Assembly: GCA_015057525.1 (NCBI GenBank)
Contig: SVEE01000014.1
Span: forward strand, 1 to 42,435
Direction: 5' to 3'
From: Lachnospiraceae bacterium
GTDB taxonomy: Bacteria; Bacillota; Clostridia; Lachnospirales; Lachnospiraceae
DNA: 42,435 nucleotides
Both the position numbers and the translations under genes were made by a program. Shown here one piece after another: positions 7,480-16,558 of the stretch. The notes below the pieces were generated by a model. It made no database searches. It was not told the DNA's origin and saw nothing but the letters and a program-made list of their open reading frames with translations. How positions within the stretch are numbered: the stretch's first letter is position 1; each line of letters begins with the position of its first letter.

Positions 7480-7597
7480 ATAAGAATTTTTGCAAATTTA
7501 TATATAAAAATATGGAAGAAATTCCTATTTTACATGAATAATTAATGTTTTTTATATAATCTGAATTTTCTCAAACACAATCAAGAAAGGATATACT

Positions 7598-8629
7598 ATG
7601 TTCGATAACTTAAACAACTACAGAGTATTTTATACCGTTGCCAACACAGGAAGCATTAGCCGTGCCGCCGACACATTATTCATCAGCCAGCCTGCCATAA
7701 GCAAATCCATCGCTAAGCTTGAAGAGGGCTTGGGAATAAAGCTTTTCTCAAGAAGTGCAAAAGGCGTTGTTTTAACTGAAGAAGGAAAAATCCTCTATCA
7801 GCATATTACAAAAGCCTTCGATAGCATTAATCAAGGCGAAGAAGAAATTAAAAGAATAAATGATTTAGGTATAGGTCAGCTAAGAATCGGAGTAAGCTCC
7901 TCTCTATGTAAGCATATATTGCTTCCATATTTGCAGGACTTTATCACAGAAAACCCACATATTAACGTAATAATAGACTGCCACTCTACTATTAATACTG
8001 TTCACCTCTTGACAGAGGGCAAAATAGACATAGGCTTAATCTGTGAAACCGAAATTCCAAAGGGCTATAAATATAAGAAGCTTACTGATATACACGATAT
8101 ATTTGTAGCTACAGATTCTTACATTGATAATCTCATGCTTCGTGAACATGAAGAAGCTACCCCTGTCGCAGATAATCCATGGCTTTTTGCAGGTAATCTT
8201 ACCAGCCTTTTAAACAGCGATACAGTCTCTAACAAAGACACAAACAAAGATACAAGCAATACCTTAAATGCAAATCAAGACACCGTTCAGAATACATTAT
8301 CCATCAAGGACATATTGGAGAAATCCAATCTCATGCTCCTTGAGAAAAATAACATAACCAGAACCCATATAGATAACTACCTCACCGACGAACATATCCA
8401 CCCAAACCAGATACTTGAGGTAAACAACATGGATTTACTTATCGATTTCGCTTCTATCGGTATGGGGGTTGCCAGTGTAGTACGTGAATTTGCAAAAGAA
8501 CAATTAAAAAGCAGACAAATCATAGAGCTTGAGCTTGAAAAAGACATAGAAAAAAGAACAGTTGGATTTATTTATTCTAATACAAAAAACAAATCAACTG
8601 TTCTGGAAAAGTTTTTGGGGTTTTTTTGA
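7598..8629 (+). CDS. LysR-family transcriptional regulator, probable regulator of the leu/ilv operon
   Basis: The 343 residues comprise an N-terminal winged helix-turn-helix (about 1-60, with SISRAADTLFISQPAISKSI as recognition region) and a periplasmic-binding-like effector domain. LysR proteins usually have about 300 residues. The extra length is a low-complexity Asn/Thr/Ser/Asp segment at about 181-234 (nt 8138-8299) between the two halves of the effector domain, containing the near-repeat NKDTNKDTSN. The conserved flanks HDIFVATDSYID and LMLLEKNNITR continue normally on either side, so the frame is intact. The ATG follows AAAGGA. Divergence from leuC and the palindrome between them point to control of leuC, with IlvY, LeuO and CcpC as functional analogues. 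The effector is unknown. Confidence 0.85.
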   Translation: MFDNLNNYRVFYTVANTGSISRAADTLFISQPAISKSIAKLEEGLGIKLFSRSAKGVVLTEEGKILYQHITKAFDSINQGEEEIKRINDLGIGQLRIGVSSSLCKHILLPYLQDFITENPHINVIIDCHSTINTVHLLTEGKIDIGLICETEIPKGYKYKKLTDIHDIFVATDSYIDNLMLREHEEATPVADNPWLFAGNLTSLLNSDTVSNKDTNKDTSNTLNANQDTVQNTLSIKDILEKSNLMLLEKNNITRTHIDNYLTDEHIHPNQILEVNNMDLLIDFASIGMGVASVVREFAKEQLKSRQIIELELEKDIEKRTVGFIYSNTKNKSTVLEKFLGFF

Positions 8630-8654
8630 TGAATTATTCTTCGGATATTATTAT

Positions 8655-9482
8655 TTACATTATATCCTTTCTTTTTATCATAAATAATCCCATGATATAT
8701 AGCACTACACATAAAAGAAACAAATATTTCATGCCAAAGCTTATGTCTAATGGATTGAAATCATAATTCGCATAATTCGCACAATACCTACATATCATAG
8801 AATAACCATGTATAATATATTTGTTTGAATAATACGAAGAAAAAACAAGAATGCCTAGTATAATTATCATTGAAATATCACTTTTTAAATAAATATTCAA
8901 TACTAATTGAAATAAACTCTGAACAATACCTACCAGTATTGGCATAACAATAAGCATAATATGTAACTTATTTATATTTAAATTATTTAATTGTGTACCA
9001 AACGTTTCAATAAAATATTGTTTGTTTTTTACAAAAGAAACTTTACCATATCTTATCCATTCATAAGAAATAATTGTTCCCCATATAACAATAAAATGAC
9101 CTATAGACACAAAAACAATTCTTAAACATTTTGAGCACCACCAAATACCTCTATTATACGAATTAATCATAACCAACATGCCAAATCCATTCAAATCATT
9201 ATTAAAATAATCACCAATTAACATAGCCAAATAAGCATATATAATCAACCACTCAAACGGTATAAGAAATATTTGTTTTTTACCAATGTCAAATTCAAAA
9301 GGATATCTTCCAAAAAACGTATTTATTCCCATTTCTAAGGATGTTGCACTTTCACCAAATATTGACATTATATAATTGGTTCTTGTTTCAAACATAACAA
9401 TAGATACCAATACCAAAGGACATATCAACAAAAATTTATTAAAATATTTAATTACTCCTTCTTCAAAATCATATTTGAACAA
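8655..9482 (-). CDS. Putative ABC-2-type permease subunit, last gene of the agr-linked operon
   Basis: The product is a 275-residue integral membrane protein with about six hydrophobic segments, including residues 13-30, 72-92, 115-135, 172-195, 203-222 and 250-268. It has no ATPase motif. It follows the ATPase gene by 23 bp, and a second permease precedes the ATPase. The set therefore has the permease-ATPase-permease order of two-permease ABC systems such as lantibiotic immunity (LanFEG) or BcrAB-like exporters. The start is a TTG at 9482 with AGGAGG eleven bases upstream; no in-frame ATG lies nearer. Sequence identity to a named family was not recognised, so the permease call rests on topology and context. 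Confidence 0.7.
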   Translation of the reverse strand: MFKYDFEEGVIKYFNKFLLICPLVLVSIVMFETRTNYIMSIFGESATSLEMGINTFFGRYPFEFDIGKKQIFLIPFEWLIIYAYLAMLIGDYFNNDLNGFGMLVMINSYNRGIWWCSKCLRIVFVSIGHFIVIWGTIISYEWIRYGKVSFVKNKQYFIETFGTQLNNLNINKLHIMLIVMPILVGIVQSLFQLVLNIYLKSDISMIIILGILVFSSYYSNKYIIHGYSMICRYCANYANYDFNPLDISFGMKYLFLLCVVLYIMGLFMIKRKDIM

Positions 9483-9505
9483 TTTAATTTATTCCTCCTT
9501 CAAAT

Positions 9506-10138
9506 TCAACACACAATTTTCCCTTCCGAAATATATATAATCTCATCAGCCATAAACGTCAACTCTTCTTTATCATGGCAAGCAATTATAATAATCCTAT
9601 TTTCTGATACTAGTGCTTTAATAATATCTTTAATATCTTTTACACCATTCTCATCAATTGCATTAATTGGTTCATCCAACAATATTATATCTGGATTTCC
9701 CATTATTGCTGCTGCAACTCCTAATCTTTGTCTCATACCTAAAGAGAATTTATAATATTTTCTCTTATCCTCGCTATCCAAACCAACTTTTAATAATAAA
9801 TCTTTTATTTGATTATCATTTATTTTATTCTCTTTTATAGAGTTTAAAATTTTCAAATTCTCATATCCTGTATATTCTCTCAAAAAAACCGGATGATTGA
9901 TTAATACACCAATACTAGGTGGAAAAGAAAAATCTACACCTAATATCTTATTATTAATTAATACTTCCCCATAAGTTGGATGAACTAACCCAGATATAAT
10001 TCGCATTATCATAGTTTTCCCAGATCCATTTTTTCCACTAAGACCGTATATTTTACCACCCTCAAATGTATATGATATACTATCTAAAATAGTTGTTTTT
10101 TTTATTTTTTTTGTAACATTATCAAGTTCAATCTTCAT
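9506..10138 (-). CDS. ABC transporter ATP-binding protein, BcrA/LanF-like
   Basis: This 210-residue nucleotide-binding domain would power the two adjacent permeases. Motifs seen: Walker A GKNGSGKT (35-42), signature FSLGMRQR (131-138), Walker B IILLDEP (151-157), and switch His188 in ACHDKEE. At the Q-loop position the sequence reads IGVLINHPVF, with no glutamine. Many immunity-type ATPases (LanF, BcrA) also replace the Gln there, usually by Glu. The protein is short and has no extra domain, as expected for that group. The ATG at 10138 follows AAAGAGGT, and it lies 14 bp after the upstream permease. Confidence 0.9.
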   Translation of the reverse strand: MKIELDNVTKKIKKTTILDSISYTFEGGKIYGLSGKNGSGKTMIMRIISGLVHPTYGEVLINNKILGVDFSFPPSIGVLINHPVFLREYTGYENLKILNSIKENKINDNQIKDLLLKVGLDSEDKRKYYKFSLGMRQRLGVAAAIMGNPDIILLDEPINAIDENGVKDIKDIIKALVSENRIIIIACHDKEELTFMADEIIYISEGKIVC

Positions 10139-10152
10139 TTTTACCTCTTTCT

Positions 10153-11010
10153 CTATAAAACTTCTCGCTTACGATTTATCCGATAGTACAATATATATAT
10201 ACCAATAATAATAAATATTGTTATCGTCACTAACGGAAACATTTCATTACTTCTTGATATTTGTGATGGATTAATAAAGTATGACGGATTATAAGTTCTT
10301 GTATTTATAAACAGATTTCCAAGTCCATAATAAAGAAAAAAATGTAATACTGCGGGGAAAACAAATATACTAAACCAATTTTTCGAGTACTTAGACACTG
10401 TTAATGCTATACACGCAAAAATTCCTCCATAAACAAAATCGACAATCATATAAATAAATGCATATATAATAGGCTTTTCAAGATATATAGATCCCCACAT
10501 ATCTACAATTCCAATTCTAGCCTGTAATGACATTGGCTCCATATTTATAATTGGAAGATAACATGCAGCCACAATCAAGCTTAATAATAAAGGAAATACT
10601 ACTGCAAGTCCTCCCCCTAGAAAAGTAGCCAAAAATTTAGCATTAAGATATAATTTTTTTTCGCATCTAGTTATAATATTATATACATACCCCGTCTCCC
10701 ATTCGTTATATAATGAAATTCCAAACGGCATAACTGCTAAAAATGGAAATAATAAAAACAGCATTTCGTTATATCCTGAATAATTTTCACATCCAAGCCA
10801 GCCTTCCAATATACTATTTTCAAAAAAACGAATATTTTTATATTCTATAGAATTTGACATTATAATTTCATACTCCATATTTATAGCAGCTCTCTGATTA
10901 TTCACAAACCAATAGGTTTGTAATACTACTATTACTACTCCTATTACAATAACAATTCGTAAGTTTTTTCCTTTATACATCCTTTTTAATTCTTCACAAA
11001 CAATACTCAT
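10153..11010 (-). CDS. Putative ABC-2-type permease subunit
   Basis: This 285-residue membrane protein has a hydrophobic N-terminal helix (about 18-35), an extracellular loop of about 60 residues, and roughly five further helices between 83 and 275. The arrangement is typical of ABC-2 permeases with a large first loop. Its ATG overlaps the stop of the upstream exported-protein gene in an ATGA junction, so the two are translationally coupled. It lies 14 bp upstream of the ATPase. Together with the last gene of the operon it would form a two-permease ABC transporter. The substrate is unknown. Self-protection against, or export of, the small secreted product of the operon is the natural guess. 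Confidence 0.75.
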   Translation of the reverse strand: MSIVCEELKRMYKGKNLRIVIVIGVVIVVLQTYWFVNNQRAAINMEYEIIMSNSIEYKNIRFFENSILEGWLGCENYSGYNEMLFLLFPFLAVMPFGISLYNEWETGYVYNIITRCEKKLYLNAKFLATFLGGGLAVVFPLLLSLIVAACYLPIINMEPMSLQARIGIVDMWGSIYLEKPIIYAFIYMIVDFVYGGIFACIALTVSKYSKNWFSIFVFPAVLHFFLYYGLGNLFINTRTYNPSYFINPSQISRSNEMFPLVTITIFIIIGIYILYYRINRKREVL

Positions 11011-11576
11011 TTATATCCCTCTCTTAGTTCACCTATATCCATACAATTTTTTATAGGATATGTTCCTAACACAAGTCTGTAGGATAAATTCATAACATCA
11101 TTCCACATTTCAACAGTCATATTCTCTTTATATATTTCATATGGTAATAAAATAGTATCCCCCGAATGAAATTCTCCTTTGATTAAATTATCATTTAAAT
11201 CTTTAAAATTAAACACATCAAATTCATTCGCAATATGCCCATATTCAATATAAATATCAGGTGAGAATATATTTATTTCATCATCAATCTCCAGTTTCAC
11301 AGTTACTAAAATCACTTTACAATCAGAATTTGTTCTTTTGTCTGTAAGCTCACCATTAAAAAACTTATCATTATAATCCTCAAATCCATATATAACCGAT
11401 TCTATAACCGTATACTTGCACCCTTCATAAATTAATTCATCACCAGCTTTTATAATATTAATATCAGGAATTCTTGCATGTTTATTTACATATATAATCT
11501 GAATGATAATTGAAATTAAAATCACACAAGCCACAAAAACTTTTATCTTTTTTTTCATCAAAACACCAACTCTCAT
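11007..11576 (-). CDS. Membrane-anchored exported protein, beta-rich, unknown function
   Basis: About 189 residues. A single N-terminal hydrophobic segment follows MKKKIKVF and acts as signal or anchor. The outer domain is rich in alternating hydrophobic residues with no catalytic motif. The segment DELIYEGCKYTVIESVIYG followed by VILVTVKLEI resembles the corresponding region of the next upstream gene product (FEWNGFVYEINDITIYD...VVVEIKVKNI), so the two are probably distant paralogues. The layout resembles small Ig-like exported Firmicutes proteins (DUF4352/DUF5028 type), which I could not verify. The start at 11576 uses a TAATG junction with the upstream stop; ATG 11558 (MKKK) is the alternative. 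Its stop overlaps the permease start. Confidence 0.65.
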   Translation of the reverse strand: MRVGVLMKKKIKVFVACVILISIIIQIIYVNKHARIPDINIIKAGDELIYEGCKYTVIESVIYGFEDYNDKFFNGELTDKRTNSDCKVILVTVKLEIDDEINIFSPDIYIEYGHIANEFDVFNFKDLNDNLIKGEFHSGDTILLPYEIYKENMTVEMWNDVMNLSYRLVLGTYPIKNCMDIGELREGYK

Positions 11577-12442
11577 TATTCCACTATAACGGGAACACAT
11601 TTTACAAAAACGTCAAACGCATCATTATATACATCTATTTTATCATCATTACTTCGGGTCAATTCACCTGCTATTTGTAAAAAAAATTGATACTTCTGCG
11701 TTTCATTATAAGGATTTATAAACTCAAGTTTAACAGGTATTTCTTGTTCATAAGTGTCGATACCTTTAGATACAGAATACAACATTGTTATTTCTACTGT
11801 TTCCAACGCATCTAACATGGGATTCGTTGCATTATGACTATCATTTTTGTCTAATCCTTTTCCAGAATAATATATAACATCCTCCAAATATGTATAAAAT
11901 TCTATCCATTTTCTGTATCCATTCTCCGTATCACACCATTTTCCGCCTCCCACTCCATTCTCATCTAATATATAAATATCTAAACCAGTCAAATATAATC
12001 GCTGTTGTATGTCTAATATATTCTTTACCTTTATCTCTACAACAACAAACATTGAATTATTAAAGCAATCTACCTTCCAACCATCAGTATATTGAATTCT
12101 TGCACCTTCTGAAGCATGTTCACTTTCCAAATATGTATCATAAGTATCATATATAGTAATATCATTTATTTCATAAACAAAACCATTCCATTCAAATTCA
12201 GTATACTGTTCTCTTATACTACCATTTTTTAAATCTTCTTGTTGCTTTTCTATAGCTGATATACATTCCTCTTGTATGTCAGCTTGCCCACTAGTTTGCA
12301 TTTCTTCGAAATTATATTGTGTTTCTTCATTTATATTTTGTGTATCACTATTTTCTTTTGCAGATCTGTTTGTTTTACCAAACAGACCCGCAAAAAATAT
12401 GATACTTATAAAAATAAAAATTTTTATAAAAAATTTTTTCAT
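11576..12442 (-). CDS. Anchored exported protein with acidic linker, unknown function
   Basis: This 288-residue protein starts with MKKFFIKIF and one hydrophobic segment to about residue 22. There is no lipobox cysteine, so it is not a lipoprotein. A Glu/Gln/Asn-rich linker spans about 25-80, and a beta-rich domain fills the rest. The domain contains EFEWNGFVYEINDITIYD and FVVVEIKVKNI, similar in pattern to the following gene product. No enzyme motif was found. The ATG at 12442 has GGAG about ten bases upstream, and it begins 13 bp after the secreted-protein gene. As a surface protein of an agr-linked operon it might act as an immunity or transporter-accessory protein. This is inference. Confidence 0.65.
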   Translation of the reverse strand: MKKFFIKIFIFISIIFFAGLFGKTNRSAKENSDTQNINEETQYNFEEMQTSGQADIQEECISAIEKQQEDLKNGSIREQYTEFEWNGFVYEINDITIYDTYDTYLESEHASEGARIQYTDGWKVDCFNNSMFVVVEIKVKNILDIQQRLYLTGLDIYILDENGVGGGKWCDTENGYRKWIEFYTYLEDVIYYSGKGLDKNDSHNATNPMLDALETVEITMLYSVSKGIDTYEQEIPVKLEFINPYNETQKYQFFLQIAGELTRSNDDKIDVYNDAFDVFVKCVPVIVE

Positions 12443-12455
12443 TTATATTATACTC

Positions 12456-12932
12456 CTATTGTAATATAGTATATAACCCAACACTATCAGGACTCCAAAC
12501 TCCTTTGGCAAGCCCTGAGCCTTGATAACTATTTAAGCCTACAGATGCTCTCGAACACGATAATTCAAGCGCCCAATTAGTAATAGAATATTTACCCGTA
12601 TTATATATTGCATATATTTTATGCCCTCCCTTACTCGTACCAACAGGTACATATTTTCCGCCTCTAACTCCGTAAGGTTCAACCTCTATTGCGGATAAAT
12701 TTCCTGCTGTTACAGAGCCCCAATTAAAATAAATTTTACTGTAATCCAACTTGTCTCGAGCGGCAATATAGCTTTGACTTGTACTATCTACACTTAATAC
12801 AAAATGCCATTCTTCATCGCTATTATTACTAGCTATAGGCATTTCATAATTGACACCAAAAAATGTAATCATTATCATAATTGTCATAAAAGATAACATT
12901 ACCTTATCACTTATAGAATATTTTTTTCTCAT
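12456..12932 (-). CDS. Small secreted beta-rich protein, candidate output of the agr operon
   Basis: The 158-residue precursor has a lysine-bearing N-terminus, a hydrophobic segment (about 13-28) and probable cleavage near residues 34-36. This would leave a mature protein of about 120 residues. The mature part is rich in Ser, Gly, Tyr and Trp with short beta-like stretches (KIYFNWGSV, HKIYAIYNTG, NWALELSCS) and one cysteine. It ends with GLAKGVWSPDSVG. The pattern loosely recalls small secreted proteins such as DUF2712 or lactococcin-972-like peptides, but I cannot confirm either. The ATG at 12932 follows GGAGGTG. It is the first gene after agrD, 28 bp downstream, which makes it the leading candidate for the system's secreted effector. 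Confidence 0.7.
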   Translation of the reverse strand: MRKKYSISDKVMLSFMTIMIMITFFGVNYEMPIASNNSDEEWHFVLSVDSTSQSYIAARDKLDYSKIYFNWGSVTAGNLSAIEVEPYGVRGGKYVPVGTSKGGHKIYAIYNTGKYSITNWALELSCSRASVGLNSYQGSGLAKGVWSPDSVGLYTILQ

Positions 12933-12960
12933 AAAAAAACACCTCCAAATAATTCTTTTT

Positions 12961-13107
12961 CTACTTCCTACTCATATCTTCCTGCATTCGCCTTACAGCA
13001 TCCGGAATCTTTGGTTCAAATAAAATTCCTGGAAAACTCTTGCCATGTGATTCCACAGCCACTTTTTCAGCAAAGGCTTTAGCCTTATCCTTTAACTGTT
13101 TTTTCAT
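12961..13107 (-). CDS. agrD: AgrD-like autoinducer precursor peptide without cysteine
   Basis: A 48-residue gene begins at ATG 13107, 23 bp inside the end of agrB, with GGAGGTAAGT upstream. The precursor has a basic amphipathic leader (MKKQLKDKAKAFAEKVA), a core region HGKSFPGILF, and the C-terminal recognition segment EPKIPDAV followed by a charged tail. This matches AgrD layout: leader, ring, then E-P-K-x-P. Most AgrD peptides have Cys as the thiolactone residue. Here the only hydroxyl or thiol residue in the core is Ser24, so a serine lactone, as in Staphylococcus intermedius, is predicted. The ring could be Ser-Phe-Pro-Gly-Ile, with or without the following Leu. Identity depends on position beside agrB and on the tail motif. 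Confidence 0.82.
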   Translation of the reverse strand: MKKQLKDKAKAFAEKVAVESHGKSFPGILFEPKIPDAVRRMQEDMSRK

Positions 13108-13666
13108 TTGTACTTACCTCCGCCCTAAGCTTTATTGTCGTTACGGCTTCAATAAGCATAGCTACCACCATAACGTTTGTTAAAGTACTATTTATAATAT
13201 GTCCGATTAATGTAACCACCACCAGATACATTACAGACATGTACTTTCTCCTTTTTATTTCAGAAAAATCCTTTAGTACGCTTTCCTTTGTCCACGAAGG
13301 AGCAAAACATAATATCAGTACAAAACTAACCATAAAGCAAACCACGTATGAAAAAGCATTAAAGTCTACATACATTGAAGTCATACTAATCAACCAAAAC
13401 AACGCTACCATTAGAAAACATCCCATACTCGACTTCATATGAAAACCACCTGCATATCTTCTAAGTCCCGAAAACCCTATAAAAAACGCGATTGTTTCTT
13501 TAAATATACCAAGCACACCACCCACTAATAGGATAATAAGCACCTTATATACTGTCTCTAATGTCAAAAGTACTCCATATCTGACAACTTGATATTCATC
13601 AGACTCTTTTAAACATTCTTTTCCTAATATCCATACTGTAATAGCATCTGATAACATTTCAGTCAT
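13085..13666 (-). CDS. agrB: AgrB-like accessory gene regulator endopeptidase
   Basis: AgrB is a membrane cysteine protease that cleaves AgrD at its C-terminal side and forms the cyclic autoinducer. The 193-residue protein has several membrane segments and the family signature RRYAGGFHMKSSMGC, placing catalytic His76 and Cys83 seven residues apart as in S. aureus AgrB. The ATG at 13666 follows GGAGG. The 3' end overlaps agrD by 23 bp, the usual coupling. Its promoter region contains the AgrA-type direct repeats, so autoinduction is likely. Confidence 0.93.
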   Translation of the reverse strand: MTEMLSDAITVWILGKECLKESDEYQVVRYGVLLTLETVYKVLIILLVGGVLGIFKETIAFFIGFSGLRRYAGGFHMKSSMGCFLMVALFWLISMTSMYVDFNAFSYVVCFMVSFVLILCFAPSWTKESVLKDFSEIKRRKYMSVMYLVVVTLIGHIINSTLTNVMVVAMLIEAVTTIKLRAEVSTNEKTVKG

Positions 13667-13721
13667 TTAATCCCTCCAAACCTTTATTACCTGACTTGAC
13701 CTCATGTTATCATATAAACTA

Positions 13722-13781
13722 AAAAAAATGTTGCTTTTGTCCTGAACGCATCGTTTTACGTCCTGAACGCAACATTTTTTT
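13722..13781. repeat. 13-bp inverted repeat flanking the AgrA sites
   Basis: AAAAAAATGTTGC (13722-13734) and GCAACATTTTTTT (13769-13781) are perfectly complementary and enclose 34 bp that hold both AgrA repeats except the last three bases of the second. It could form a cruciform, or act as a terminator-like stem on either transcript. Confidence 0.6.
13739..13771. promoter_or_regulatory. Two 12-bp direct repeats 21 bp apart, probable AgrA (LytTR) binding site
   Basis: GTCCTGAACGCA occurs exactly at 13739-13750 and 13760-13771. A period of 21 bp, two helical turns, is characteristic of LytTR response regulators such as AgrA and ComE. The repeats lie just upstream of a possible agrB -10 (TATGAT, minus strand near 13710) with a poor -35, as expected for an activated promoter. 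They also lie about 25 bp upstream of the agrC -35. Confidence 0.75.
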
Positions 13782-13793
13782 ATAAATTTGTGC

Positions 13794-13822
13794 TTGACAT
13801 GGCATTTTTTATCCCTTAACTT
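13794..13822 (+). promoter_or_regulatory. Predicted agrC promoter
   Basis: A perfect -35 TTGACA (13794-13799) lies 17 bp from the -10-like TAACTT (13817-13822). The start would fall near 13829, about 14 nt before the agrC ATG. The strong -35 suggests basal expression of the sensor pair. Confidence 0.5.
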
Positions 13823-13842
13823 AATCATATGGGGGTATCAAC

Positions 13843-15162
13843 ATGACGGAATTAGCATTAGATTTATACATATTAGCATTGATTGGAAATTTTCTTTGTT
13901 TATATATACCAGAAACTACATTATTAACTAAGCCTTTTACTAAAAAAACACATATACTATATATCATCTTACTTTTTATATCATGTTTATTTTATGTTAC
14001 TTATAATCTTAATGGAACAGCATGTATTTTATTGTCTTTTTTGTGGATAGGTCTTCTTACAGATAAACACCTATATAACACAATCTTAGCTATCTGGGGA
14101 TATCTTACCAGTATGTGTTGGAATTATATTTTTCTGCTTATATTTGACAAAATTACAGGTATAGACCAGAGTATGTTATATACTACAGCTAAATATCAGA
14201 TTATTTTTTATCTTTTTTACATTCCTAGCCTATATCTTGTACTTTTTATCATGAAAAAATTATTACACCTTATACCATCTATGGATAAAGCCTTCAAAAA
14301 AAGCCTTTTGCTTTTTATTATAGCTTTCCTATTGATATGTGTATTGATTTATAGACTGAACGCTGCTATTGAGTATGATTATGATTTTCCTGATGAGCTG
14401 GTTAGACGTAATGCCATGCTTTTTATCGGCTTCTTCATATTTACAGGCATACTCCTTTTAGTTGTCATCATCACAATATATAAAGATATTAAGACCAGCC
14501 AGTCTCTTAAAGAGATGGAAAACCTAAAAAAATATACAGAAGAGATAGAAAACCTCTACTTCTCTCTGCGAAGCTTCAAGCATGATTACACTAATGTTTT
14601 ATATAGCATGAAAAGCTATATTGACACCAAACAGTACGACAGCTTAAATACCTACTATGAAAACGATATTTTACCTTTAGTCAAATCTCTGGATACAAAT
14701 AATCCGGCTATAGAATTTCTTTCAAACATAAAAATACCTGAGCTTAAAAGTATCCTCTACCTTAAGATACTTGAAGCTGGCAAAGAAAAAATTCAGGTTA
14801 ATCTTGAGGTCAAATGGTCAATTGATGAGATTAACATCAAACCTATTGATTTAACACGAATTATGGGAAACATTCTAGACAATGCGATTGATGAGGCAAA
14901 AGAGATATCCGACAAGAAAAAAAGAGTCATTAACATCTCCTGCATCAACAACAAAAAAGCTACAGTTATAATTATTAACAACCCTACTATCCAGCAAAGC
15001 ATAAACCTTGCTGATATTAGAAAAACTGGAAGCACTACCAAATCCGGTGAACACGGCTTGGGACTTTCTAATGTAACCAGTATTATAAAAAGATATCCAA
15101 ACTGTCTTCTTGAAACAGAATTTGAAGATGGTATTTTTACTCAAACTATAGAAATATCATAA
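13843..15162 (+). CDS. agrC: AgrC-like GHKL sensor histidine kinase
   Basis: This is the probable receptor for the agrD-derived cyclic peptide. The 439 residues comprise an N-terminal sensor of about six membrane helices (5-210), a dimerisation helix with phosphoacceptor His247 in SFKHDYTN, and a GHKL ATPase domain. The ATPase shows N-box NILDNAIDEAKE and G-box GEHGLGLSN. The ATG at 13843 has GGGGGT upstream. It precedes the response regulator by 24 bp and diverges from agrB. S. aureus agr has all four genes in one direction, so this split arrangement differs from that type. Confidence 0.9.
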   Translation: MTELALDLYILALIGNFLCLYIPETTLLTKPFTKKTHILYIILLFISCLFYVTYNLNGTACILLSFLWIGLLTDKHLYNTILAIWGYLTSMCWNYIFLLIFDKITGIDQSMLYTTAKYQIIFYLFYIPSLYLVLFIMKKLLHLIPSMDKAFKKSLLLFIIAFLLICVLIYRLNAAIEYDYDFPDELVRRNAMLFIGFFIFTGILLLVVIITIYKDIKTSQSLKEMENLKKYTEEIENLYFSLRSFKHDYTNVLYSMKSYIDTKQYDSLNTYYENDILPLVKSLDTNNPAIEFLSNIKIPELKSILYLKILEAGKEKIQVNLEVKWSIDEINIKPIDLTRIMGNILDNAIDEAKEISDKKKRVINISCINNKKATVIIINNPTIQQSINLADIRKTGSTTKSGEHGLGLSNVTSIIKRYPNCLLETEFEDGIFTQTIEIS

Positions 15163-15186
15163 TTTCGTTACCGAAAGGACATCCTA

Positions 15187-15921
15187 ATGATTAATATATA
15201 CATATGCGAGGACGACGATATACAGCGTCGGAACTTAAAATGCTCTCTCGAAAACTCAATCACTACATATAGCGACACCATGCAGTTTGTTTTGGATGCC
15301 GCATCACCTGACGAGCTTTTATCTAATATAAAGCATAAATCACAGGACATAGGACTTTATTTCCTTGATTTGGATTTGAATGCCTCGATTAACGGTTTCG
15401 AATTAGCACAAAGAATAAGAAAGCTTGACCCTAGAGGATTTATCGTCATTGTTACTACTCACTCCGAAATGTTACCACTTACCTTTAGATACATGATAGA
15501 ACCTCTGGATTATATTATTAAAAATTCTTCTGAACAAATCGCCGAGCAGGCTAAAAGCTGTATCGCACTTGCTTATGAGCGTTATACAAGCTTTTATAAT
15601 AGTGACACTACTGTTATCACTTTTAGCACAAACACAAAAAACTACAACATAGACAGTTCAACTATTTACTACATCACTGTCTCAAGCACTCCACACACAC
15701 TTGAAATATGCACAACTAACAAGCTGATTCAGGCAAGAGGCTCACTCGCTGATATTTTACATAAGCTTCCAAAACAGTTTTTACAGATATCAAGAGAGAC
15801 TGTTATTAACACTTCCTTTATAAAAGAAATTGATAAAACAAACAAAAACGTCACTTTAGAAAATGATGTTTTCTTCCAAATTTCTTATCGTAAAATAAAA
15901 CAGCTTACCAGCACGGACTAA
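15187..15921 (+). CDS. agrA: AgrA-like LytTR response regulator
   Basis: The 244-residue protein has a receiver domain (1-125) with acidic pocket EDDD at 8-11 and phosphoacceptor Asp61 in YFLDLDLN, then a LytTR DNA-binding domain (about 140-240) with [19 protein letters not shown]. It is the expected partner of the kinase just upstream and would bind the direct repeats at 13739-13771. Its 3' end overlaps the convergent J-domain gene by 17 bp, leaving no room for a terminator between them. Confidence 0.92.
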
Positions 15922-16558
15922 GGCAACTGCATATCAAATAATTCAAGCATAAATCACAACACAGACTTCCGTTATATGCATTAGGCATGCCATATCCCAT
16001 ACCTCTTTGCACATACCAGTCTCCACCACCATTCATACGGTCTTGGAAACGGCGATATTCCATGTTGTTTGGCTCAAGTGATATCGCTCTTTCTATATGC
16101 TCTTTGGCTGTTGCCTGGTTACCTGCTCCCATATTGGCAGCCGCACTTAAATAATACCATCTACCATTTCTCTCAGATATATCACTCAAAGTTCTTAAAG
16201 CTTCATTGTACTTGCCATTCATAATAAAGTTCTGTGCAGCCGTAAGCCTTGCTTCCTCTTTACTTGTTCCACCACTATCATTTCGGGCACGATTCCATGC
16301 ACTATTTGCTCCAGCAAATCCACCAAAGCCTCCATAAGTACCATAAGAAGAACCCGGGCCATAGCCACCAGTATTTTTATCCATTATAGAATTATAAGCA
16401 GCCTGAACTTCCTTAAATTTTTCCTCTGCCTGTTCTTTATTTGGGTTATTTATGTTCGCATCAGGATGATATTTACGACTAAGATTTCTGTATGCTTTTT
16501 TTACCTCATCCTCTGATGCTCCCGGTCTAAGACCTAATACCGCATAAGGGTCTCTCAT
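15905..16558 (-). CDS. J-domain protein with TPR-like region and cysteine-rich tail
   Basis: The 217 residues begin with a J-domain ([23 protein letters not shown] in [10 protein letters not shown]). A Gly/Tyr/Ser-rich linker follows, then a TPR-like pair (about 107-180: [21 protein letters not shown] and [15 protein letters not shown]), and a tail holding six cysteines. It should stimulate an Hsp70 for some dedicated client. The ATG at 16558 was chosen over an upstream TTG because AAAGGAG precedes it; the start overlaps the stop of the DUF5685 gene (ATGA). The fixed order zinc-ribbon, DUF5685, J-domain suggests one functional unit. Its client is unknown. Confidence 0.85.

Follow-up and report, generated by a model that had tools for sequence, protein, structure and literature searches.

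Several described systems resemble parts of the locus reported here. LanFEG lantibiotic immunity with a LanI lipoprotein has an architecture of ATPase, permeases and lipoprotein, the Pmt exporter of staphylococci has two ATPase genes, and lactococcin 972 is secreted via Sec. On the side of quorum sensing, the closest counterparts are the agr system of Staphylococcus aureus (agrBDCA) and the fsr system of Enterococcus faecalis, the latter with two adjacent target genes (excerpt of PMC3673130). Here we describe a locus at positions 8655-15921 of a stretch of 42,435 nucleotides (the window; contig SVEE01000014.1, our C17, of a 2.35-Mb genome) from a Lachnospiraceae bacterium, in which agr genes adjoin a cassette for a secreted protein, two anchored exported proteins and an ATP-binding cassette (ABC) complex. 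AgrB, AgrC and AgrA are all present, as in S. aureus. With fsr the locus shares adjacent targets, and its predicted signal parallels the lactone of that system, the gelatinase biosynthesis-activating pheromone (GBAP) (excerpt of PMC3673130). In contrast to agr and fsr, agrCA is divergent from agrBD, the outputs follow agrD in one presumed operon, and the AgrD core, GKSxPxxL-[FY]-ExK-x-P, is free of Cys.

We put at about even the chance that this is an agr-controlled interference locus, in which agr would induce a Sec-secreted, bacteriocin-like protein while the anchored proteins and a LanFEG-like ABC complex would serve self-protection. The predicted agr wiring of the leftward operon is well supported: a tandem candidate AgrA site, a minus strand without terminator-like match, agrD synteny and a split gene order that recurs elsewhere all favor the proposal of the initial annotation that this operon is both source of the signal and its output.

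Gene organization of the locus

All ten genes lie where the initial annotation had placed them, in the orientations it had given. On the plus strand, agrC (13843-15162) encodes a membrane sensor histidine kinase (GHKL 1.3e-21; HDY at residue 247) and agrA (15187-15921) a response regulator with receiver and LytTR DNA-binding domain (Pfam LytTR 6e-14, Response_reg 2.3e-10); their best NCBIfam matches are the AgrC (6e-57, 194 bits, cut-off 500) and AgrA (5e-36, 124 bits, cut-off 400) models, both under the equivalog cut-off. On the minus strand, agrB (13085-13666) encodes a membrane protein of the type that processes the autoinducing peptide (Pfam AgrB, PF04647, 2.7e-31, 108.8 bits against a cut-off of 23). 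The catalytic pair of AgrB consists of a His and a Cys with a seven-residue spacing, which His76 and Cys83 reproduce here (residues counted by hand); because this pair and the HDY of AgrC are kept, the agr part looks intact.

In the same orientation, agrB is followed by genes for a 48-residue AgrD-like propeptide (12961-13107), a 158-residue secreted protein that is the putative effector (12456-12932), the anchored exported proteins exp1 (288 residues, 11576-12442) and exp2 (197 residues, 11007-11600), ABC permease 1 (10153-11010), the ABC ATPase (9506-10138; ABC_tran 3.6e-27) and ABC permease 2 (8655-9482, TTG start). The packing is as close as first described: from agrB onward the junctions are an overlap of 23 bp (agrB/agrD), gaps of 28 and 13 bp, overlaps of 25 and 4 bp, and gaps of 14 and 23 bp, none therefore exceeding 28 bp. 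A terminator scan of positions 7500-16000 gave no terminator-like match on the minus strand, both of its matches being on the plus strand.

The profile searches that the initial annotation had proposed recognized AgrB, AgrC, AgrA and the ATPase. Neither permease had any family match in Pfam or NCBIfam, and exp1, exp2 and the 158-residue protein had none above the curated cut-offs. The role of permease 1 is assigned from the neighboring ATPase and its membrane-protein sequence; both permeases are conserved in the cassettes of other genomes.

Recurrence of the cassette and its association with agr

Relatives of the secreted protein were found in 9 of 299 genomes of the family by single-sequence search and in 23 of the 299 by profile search, in 13 of 37 genomes of the genus (one a weak match, in G702) and in 7 of 391 genomes of a class sample (one a weak match, in G482), the window's genome being counted each time. 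The two weak matches (E 6e-4 in G482 and 4e-4 in G702, both inside long frames) were left out of the loci that we fetched, which number 47. A further entry, L098, duplicates L054 (one genome and one locus, the contigs being of equal length) and was omitted from the partner count, the tree and the gene-content count.

Profile searches located ATPase, permease 1, permease 2 and exp2 together in 35 of the 47 loci, so that the cassette is not a chance assembly; at least one of the four is missing from the other 12, several of which are on short contigs. Clear exceptions are L105, discussed below, and L110, which has no cassette ATPase or permease 2 within 12 kb. Of 29 places in the family, 7 have an AgrB gene no more than 10 kb away, against 0.34 expected (Poisson p about 7e-8; the places were counted by hand from coordinates, and the expectation used rounded genome sizes). 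The same holds for 6 of 16 further places fetched from the genus (17 were found) and for none of the five fetched loci of the class sample. With agrB in 13 of the 47 loci, the possibility raised by the initial annotation that homologues never stand beside agr genes does not hold.

An AgrD-like gene directly precedes the secreted-protein gene in 12 of the 47 loci (the window, L016, L023, L054, L061, L069, L099, L100, L101, L102, L105 and L109), and a thirteenth, L071, has the order agrD-agrB-secreted gene. In L023, L054, L061 and L102 agrB stands apart or on the opposite strand; agrD thus goes with the cassette. The split order of the window recurs in two other species, in L016 (another genus) and in L100 (the same genus, with exp1 and exp2 fused).

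We placed 35 of the 47 loci in a tree of permease 1 and ATPase, leaving out L087 and L088 by choice and the remaining loci for want of a permease 1 or ATPase entry. On this tree agr linkage is clustered (only one of 500 shuffles was as low) and needs six changes, five of them forced by starred branches, which indicates that it was gained or lost several times. The tree is of a quick kind, with 12 of 32 forks open and the long branches of L015 and L069 meeting.

The window's own genome carries a second, diverged cassette (L015, G000:C11:150000-168000) with secreted and anchored proteins, a LanF-like ATPase and membrane proteins. It faces a second agrC-agrA-agrB set in convergent orientation, and a further kinase-like gene and a LytTR regulator are nearby. 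In L059 (6549-9222), L066 (9055-14777) and L056 (8859-10153), two-component genes like agrA or agrC lie near the cassette and no agrB was found, which suggests that other signals can drive the same cassette. A 31-codon frame in L086 (8600-8695), 11 bp before the secreted-protein gene, lacks the AgrD tail motif; it may encode a small peptide of a different kind, or be there by chance.

The region between agrC and agrB

Between the divergent agrC and agrB genes, TGCGTTCAGGAC occurs twice on the minus strand (13739-13771) as a perfect 12-bp direct repeat with 21-bp spacing, and is a candidate AgrA/LytTR site. The AgrA site of agrP2 in S. aureus consists of two 9-bp LytTR sites 12 bp apart, and the repeat has the same geometry and period as this published site (excerpt of PMC10482373). 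The repeat pattern had one match against none in 100 shuffles, and the TGCGTTCAGGAC pair is the sole match in its own genome at up to three mismatches. A wider site search of that genome gave 63 matches with at most three mismatches, against 32 for the reversed pattern, and the agrB site alone had fewer than two mismatches; the excess may come from codon bias, and we claim no wider regulon.

On the agrC side, a candidate agrCA promoter (TTGACA-N17-TAACTT, 13794-13822, plus strand) was read by eye and is absent from the list of the promoter scan. On the other side, a candidate -10 box for the agrBD-cassette operon (TATGAT, 13709-13714, minus strand), likewise read by eye and lacking a good -35 box, lies 24 bp past the repeat toward agrB.

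Similar repeats (at least 10 of 11 bases, 20-22 bp spacing) precede 8 of 12 agr-linked operons and 5 of 132 control upstream regions from the same loci, in a test devised after the window's repeat had been seen (Fisher 1.5e-7; 7 of 11 and 1.1e-6 without L101, a near-copy of L099). Operon starts were set by hand, the region for L016 being that before the start of the AgrB domain and not before that of the longest frame, and the test omitted L109, whose agrB is truncated at the contig end, and L015, in which no agrD was found. One of the five control repeats belongs to L054, where it falls within agrA in the region upstream of agrC. In L100, which shares the split order of the window, the half-site core TCAGGACA, a T-run and TATG follow in similar order.

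A scan of 29 loci for pairs of the GTTCAGG half-site returned 14 matches, against 3-8 in ten single-base shuffles; three stand before agr or secreted-protein genes (the window, L022 and L061), and in L016 one is found 47 bp ahead of permease 1. As to L022, it has GTTCAGGGCA twice, 21 bp apart, at 8434, before a secreted-protein gene (8614-9033) whose frame contains an in-frame stop in the signal region. No agr gene was found in the 18 kb fetched, and the repeat may reflect control by a distant LytTR regulator.

The AgrD-like signal

The AgrD-like frame shares 23 bp with agrB and is equipped with a Shine-Dalgarno sequence; it ends in ...GKSFPGILF-EPKIPDAV..., with a Ser where a Cys is usual and no Cys elsewhere. 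A tail of the [EQ]-x-x-P type is the expected ending of AgrD. The predicted identity of the gene as agrD rests on this C-terminal motif, conserved in relatives, and on its position and Shine-Dalgarno sequence. A ring residue (Cys or Ser) with the tail motif was seen, at the corresponding position, in 13 loci. The AgrD-like peptides of L100 (GKSIPIYLYEAKVP) and L105 (GKSLPAALYEPKVP), both from the same genus, have the GKS-x-P type of core seen in the window; those of L099 (NKASVWMLYQEEEP) and L101 (NDASTWIMHQEEEP) also lack Cys; that of L061 (KSPICGLFEPRIP) has both Ser and Cys; and Cys is present in those of L016, L023, L054, L069, L071, L102 and L109. The screen was uneven across loci (frames with Shine-Dalgarno sequences, the tail motif, inspection by eye of chosen gaps, or frames of at least 30 residues), and some AgrD genes may therefore have been missed.

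Ser-lactone agr signals are known from Staphylococcus pseudintermedius, and GBAP is also a lactone (excerpt of PMC3673130); given these precedents, the window's product is probably a lactone closed through Ser. L100, with its GKS-x-P signal, has an AgrC, AgrA and AgrB 44%, 49% and 39% identical to those of the window, so in this relative the type of signal and the receptor family match. The kinase and AgrB of L016 gave no match to their window counterparts at E 1e-3, despite equal gene order (this kinase matches HATPase_c at 5.7e-9 and GHKL barely above the cut-off), and the cassette thus seems to have been paired with differing agr modules.

The secreted protein

The 158-residue product carries a predicted Sec-type signal sequence of its own, recognized by eye, and its mature form would have about 124 residues. 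The window protein itself did not match PF10916 (DUF2712), a family of unknown function, and one of eight close relatives did (8.2e-5); in a wide homologue set the model was matched by 6 of 13 members (best 1.1e-34). Profile-profile comparison of window-type and DUF2712-type sets gave 99% probability (E 4.7e-18, 138 columns including the signal sequences). Since the protein is related in this way, yet alone misses the curated model, we class it as a distant relative of DUF2712. It diverges fast among relatives, in which a G-x-WSPD motif near the C-terminus is strongly conserved. In the domain searches of the locus, matches to Tp47 (PF14889; E 0.0049, 16.9 bits against 25) and to SAR2788/YxzE were judged to be chance or signal-sequence resemblance.

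Lactococcin 972 is likewise a small unmodified secreted protein whose cluster includes ABC and immunity genes (excerpt of PMC11161930). Its Pfam family model was, however, matched by none of the 13 homologues at E up to 10, and no lactococcin chain was among the three weak sequence matches in the PDB.

Anchored partners and the ABC complex

The suggestion that exp1 and exp2 are paralogues was confirmed, though not by BLASTP, to which the relationship is invisible (best E 0.80). Profile-profile comparison gave 91.5% probability (E 8.8e-7, 114 columns), against 0.9% for a control pair of anchored and secreted protein, and the two are fused in L017 (404 residues), L100 (441 residues) and L109 (448 residues). 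The exp2 relative of L022 has a sub-threshold resemblance to DUF5067/DUF4352, and the predicted structure of the 197-residue exp2 was unusable (mean predicted local distance difference test score, pLDDT, 44.3).

We regard exp1 as a candidate immunity partner of the 158-residue protein. The gene directly after the secreted-protein gene (54 copies) encodes an anchored protein or lipoprotein in 37 cases and permease 1 in six, while eight copies have none within 1.1 kb and three are unclear; the split was counted by hand from N-terminal hydropathy and not with a signal-peptide program, the rows for L056, L058 and the second copy of L067 were left ambiguous, and L063 and L065 look like copies of one sequence. 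Toxin-immunity pairs tend to duplicate together. Secreted gene and anchored partner have been duplicated together in L103 (7183-11513), L019 (5263-10156) and L024 (8222-11274), with two secreted copies each. In L085 (6980-10789), a class-level relative, four similar DUF2712-type genes in tandem precede a single permease/ATPase set, and no agr gene was found in the 19 kb fetched.

The ATPase is nearest to the LanF and PmtC types. Its best match is TIGR03740 (lantibiotic protection; 8.4e-49), under the cut-off (166.2 bits against 309.75); it also matches the PmtC model, again under the cut-off (1.6e-36, 126 bits against 375). Among solved structures its first matches are ABCA lipid transporters, and the first bacterial one is 6xjh_C (7e-28), which we take to be PmtCD of S. 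aureus. The locus has one ATPase, two permease-like genes (without family match) and two N-terminally anchored proteins, a set that may correspond to LanFEG with LanI; many relatives show a lipobox pattern. In contrast to LanFEG, which protects against a modified peptide, the product here is a Sec-signal protein of about 124 residues, no lantibiotic synthetase is among the ten genes, and the ATPase is under the TIGR03740 cut-off. The Pmt exporter of phenol-soluble modulins is likewise an ABC complex tied to agr biology, with a PmtC to which the ATPase is similar; the window differs in a score far under the equivalog cut-off, in its single ATPase gene, in the anchored proteins and in a product with a signal peptide.

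Proposed mechanism and alternative explanations

From gene content, gene order, the repeat and their recurrence in other genomes, all of which are read directly from the DNA, we infer a scheme that adds a lactone ring, AgrA binding, a single transcript, toxicity and immunity. AgrB would cut and cyclize AgrD into a short ring peptide of the SFPGIL type, a Ser lactone rather than a Cys thiolactone, which at high density would activate AgrC, leading to phosphorylation of AgrA. AgrA would then bind the tandem TGCGTTCAGGAC site and give rise to one polycistronic transcript from agrB through the last permease, yielding both more signal, as positive feedback, and the secreted protein. The latter would act on neighboring cells, most likely as a bacteriocin-like toxin, and the two anchored paralogues with the LanFEG-like permease-ATPase-permease would protect the producer. 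As several related species repeat the pairing of signal gene and secreted-protein gene, the protein is probably released, perhaps to fight neighbors, only at crowding.

A number of observations weigh against this scheme. For its agr part, the AgrD-like peptide had no match to AgrD models, a clear repeat is missing from 4 of the 12 agr-linked operons (L023, L054, L061 before agrD, and L069), and the repeat test has the post hoc design mentioned above. No agrB was found in 34 of the 47 fetched loci (some cut by contig ends), 23 of the 35 loci in the tree have no agr set found nearby (12 are agr-linked), and no agr gene was found at four cassette loci from the clade of the window itself (L103, L106, L107 and L108). 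For its cassette part, L105 has an AgrD-like gene and the secreted protein, and no cassette permease was found within the 10 kb fetched. The secreted protein has no similarity to a proven toxin over any cut-off, and its predicted structure was unusable (mean pLDDT 31.7). Because 34 loci are without agrB, we see agr control as a recurrent option of the cassette and not as a defining part of it.

Toxicity is the weakest step; we infer it from the patchy distribution of the protein and its fast divergence, from tandem copies and duplication paired with an anchored partner, and from an ATPase that is nearest to lantibiotic protection. The agr wiring could be right and the secreted protein nevertheless serve as a public good, for example at the surface, in a matrix or in adhesion, with the anchored proteins and the ABC complex assembling or anchoring it. 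The lack of resemblance to known toxins speaks for this, the conserved G-x-WSPD motif may fit assembly as well as activity, and agr elsewhere drives adhesion, as with the lam operon of Lactobacillus (excerpt of PMC3673130). We nevertheless consider a public good unlikely, though the foremost of the alternatives, as the paired duplication of secreted gene and partner, the presence in only 23 of 299 family genomes and a LanF-like ATPase are more usual for bacteriocin loci.

Somewhat less probable again is an export role of the ABC complex, either for the secreted protein or for the signal peptide, like that of PmtCD for the phenol-soluble modulins of staphylococci. The matches of the ATPase to PmtC and 6xjh_C fit such a role, and PmtCD is named among possible exporters of agr peptides (excerpt of PMC10482373). 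Against this, the PmtC score is far below its cut-off, the ABC genes persist at loci in which we found no AgrD, and the secreted protein appears to have its own Sec-type signal sequence. For this last reason self-protection looks likelier than export, the two roles between which the initial annotation had left the transporter.

That the cassette is under other control and merely adjoins agr, the repeat serving agr autoregulation only, has little probability: it would suit the many loci without agrB and a scan whose 59 promoter-like sites do not rise above the chance level (51.9 expected), so that internal promoters are possible, but it sits poorly with the mere 28 bp that separate agrD from the secreted-protein gene, the minus strand free of terminator-like matches and an agrD that travels with the cassette where agrB is apart or on the opposite strand.

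Genomic context

The locus is flanked by a LysR-type gene (7598-8629) that runs toward permease 2 and, on the opposite strand, by a DnaJ-like gene whose overlap with the end of agrA measures 17 bp; both genes were named by eye. The cassette (8655-12932) has a G+C content of 28.1% and the agr genes one of 32.6%, compared with 38.4% in the left and 36.4% in the right flank; the low value of the cassette hints at acquisition. A search for an empty insertion site in a same-genus genome, by way of the DnaJ-like neighbor, was dropped, the homologue in G180 being partial (47% over 84 residues). At the limits used, plasmid records held no relative of the secreted proteins of L055 or the window, and phage records none of that of L055.

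Implications for agr and DUF2712-type loci

Taken singly, agr signaling, the LanFEG-like transporter and the DUF family are all familiar. What appears new is their combination, with the signal gene within the cassette operon and a Cys-free series of AgrD peptides. The initial annotation knew of no named system with this gene set, and our literature searches, which left most subscription journals outside their coverage, found no paper describing such a set and, among 5.39 million texts, none on DUF2712; the distant relationship of the secreted protein to that Pfam family nevertheless qualifies the statement. A broader proposal, to which we give slightly less than even chances, is that DUF2712-type proteins form an undescribed class of Sec-secreted bacteriocins, with the anchored partners and the ABC complex as immunity. 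One recurrent version would have its own agr gene as first module, with signal, weapon and shield made from one AgrA-driven transcript and with Ser-lactone or thiolactone signals differing between species.

Through its agr-linked copies, the DUF2712-type cassette gains a regulator, a predicted inducer accessible to synthesis and a testable function. If the proposal is true, a class of quorum-controlled protein weapons would be added for the Clostridia, together with naturally occurring agr signals of both the Ser and the Cys type and the receptors that accompany them.

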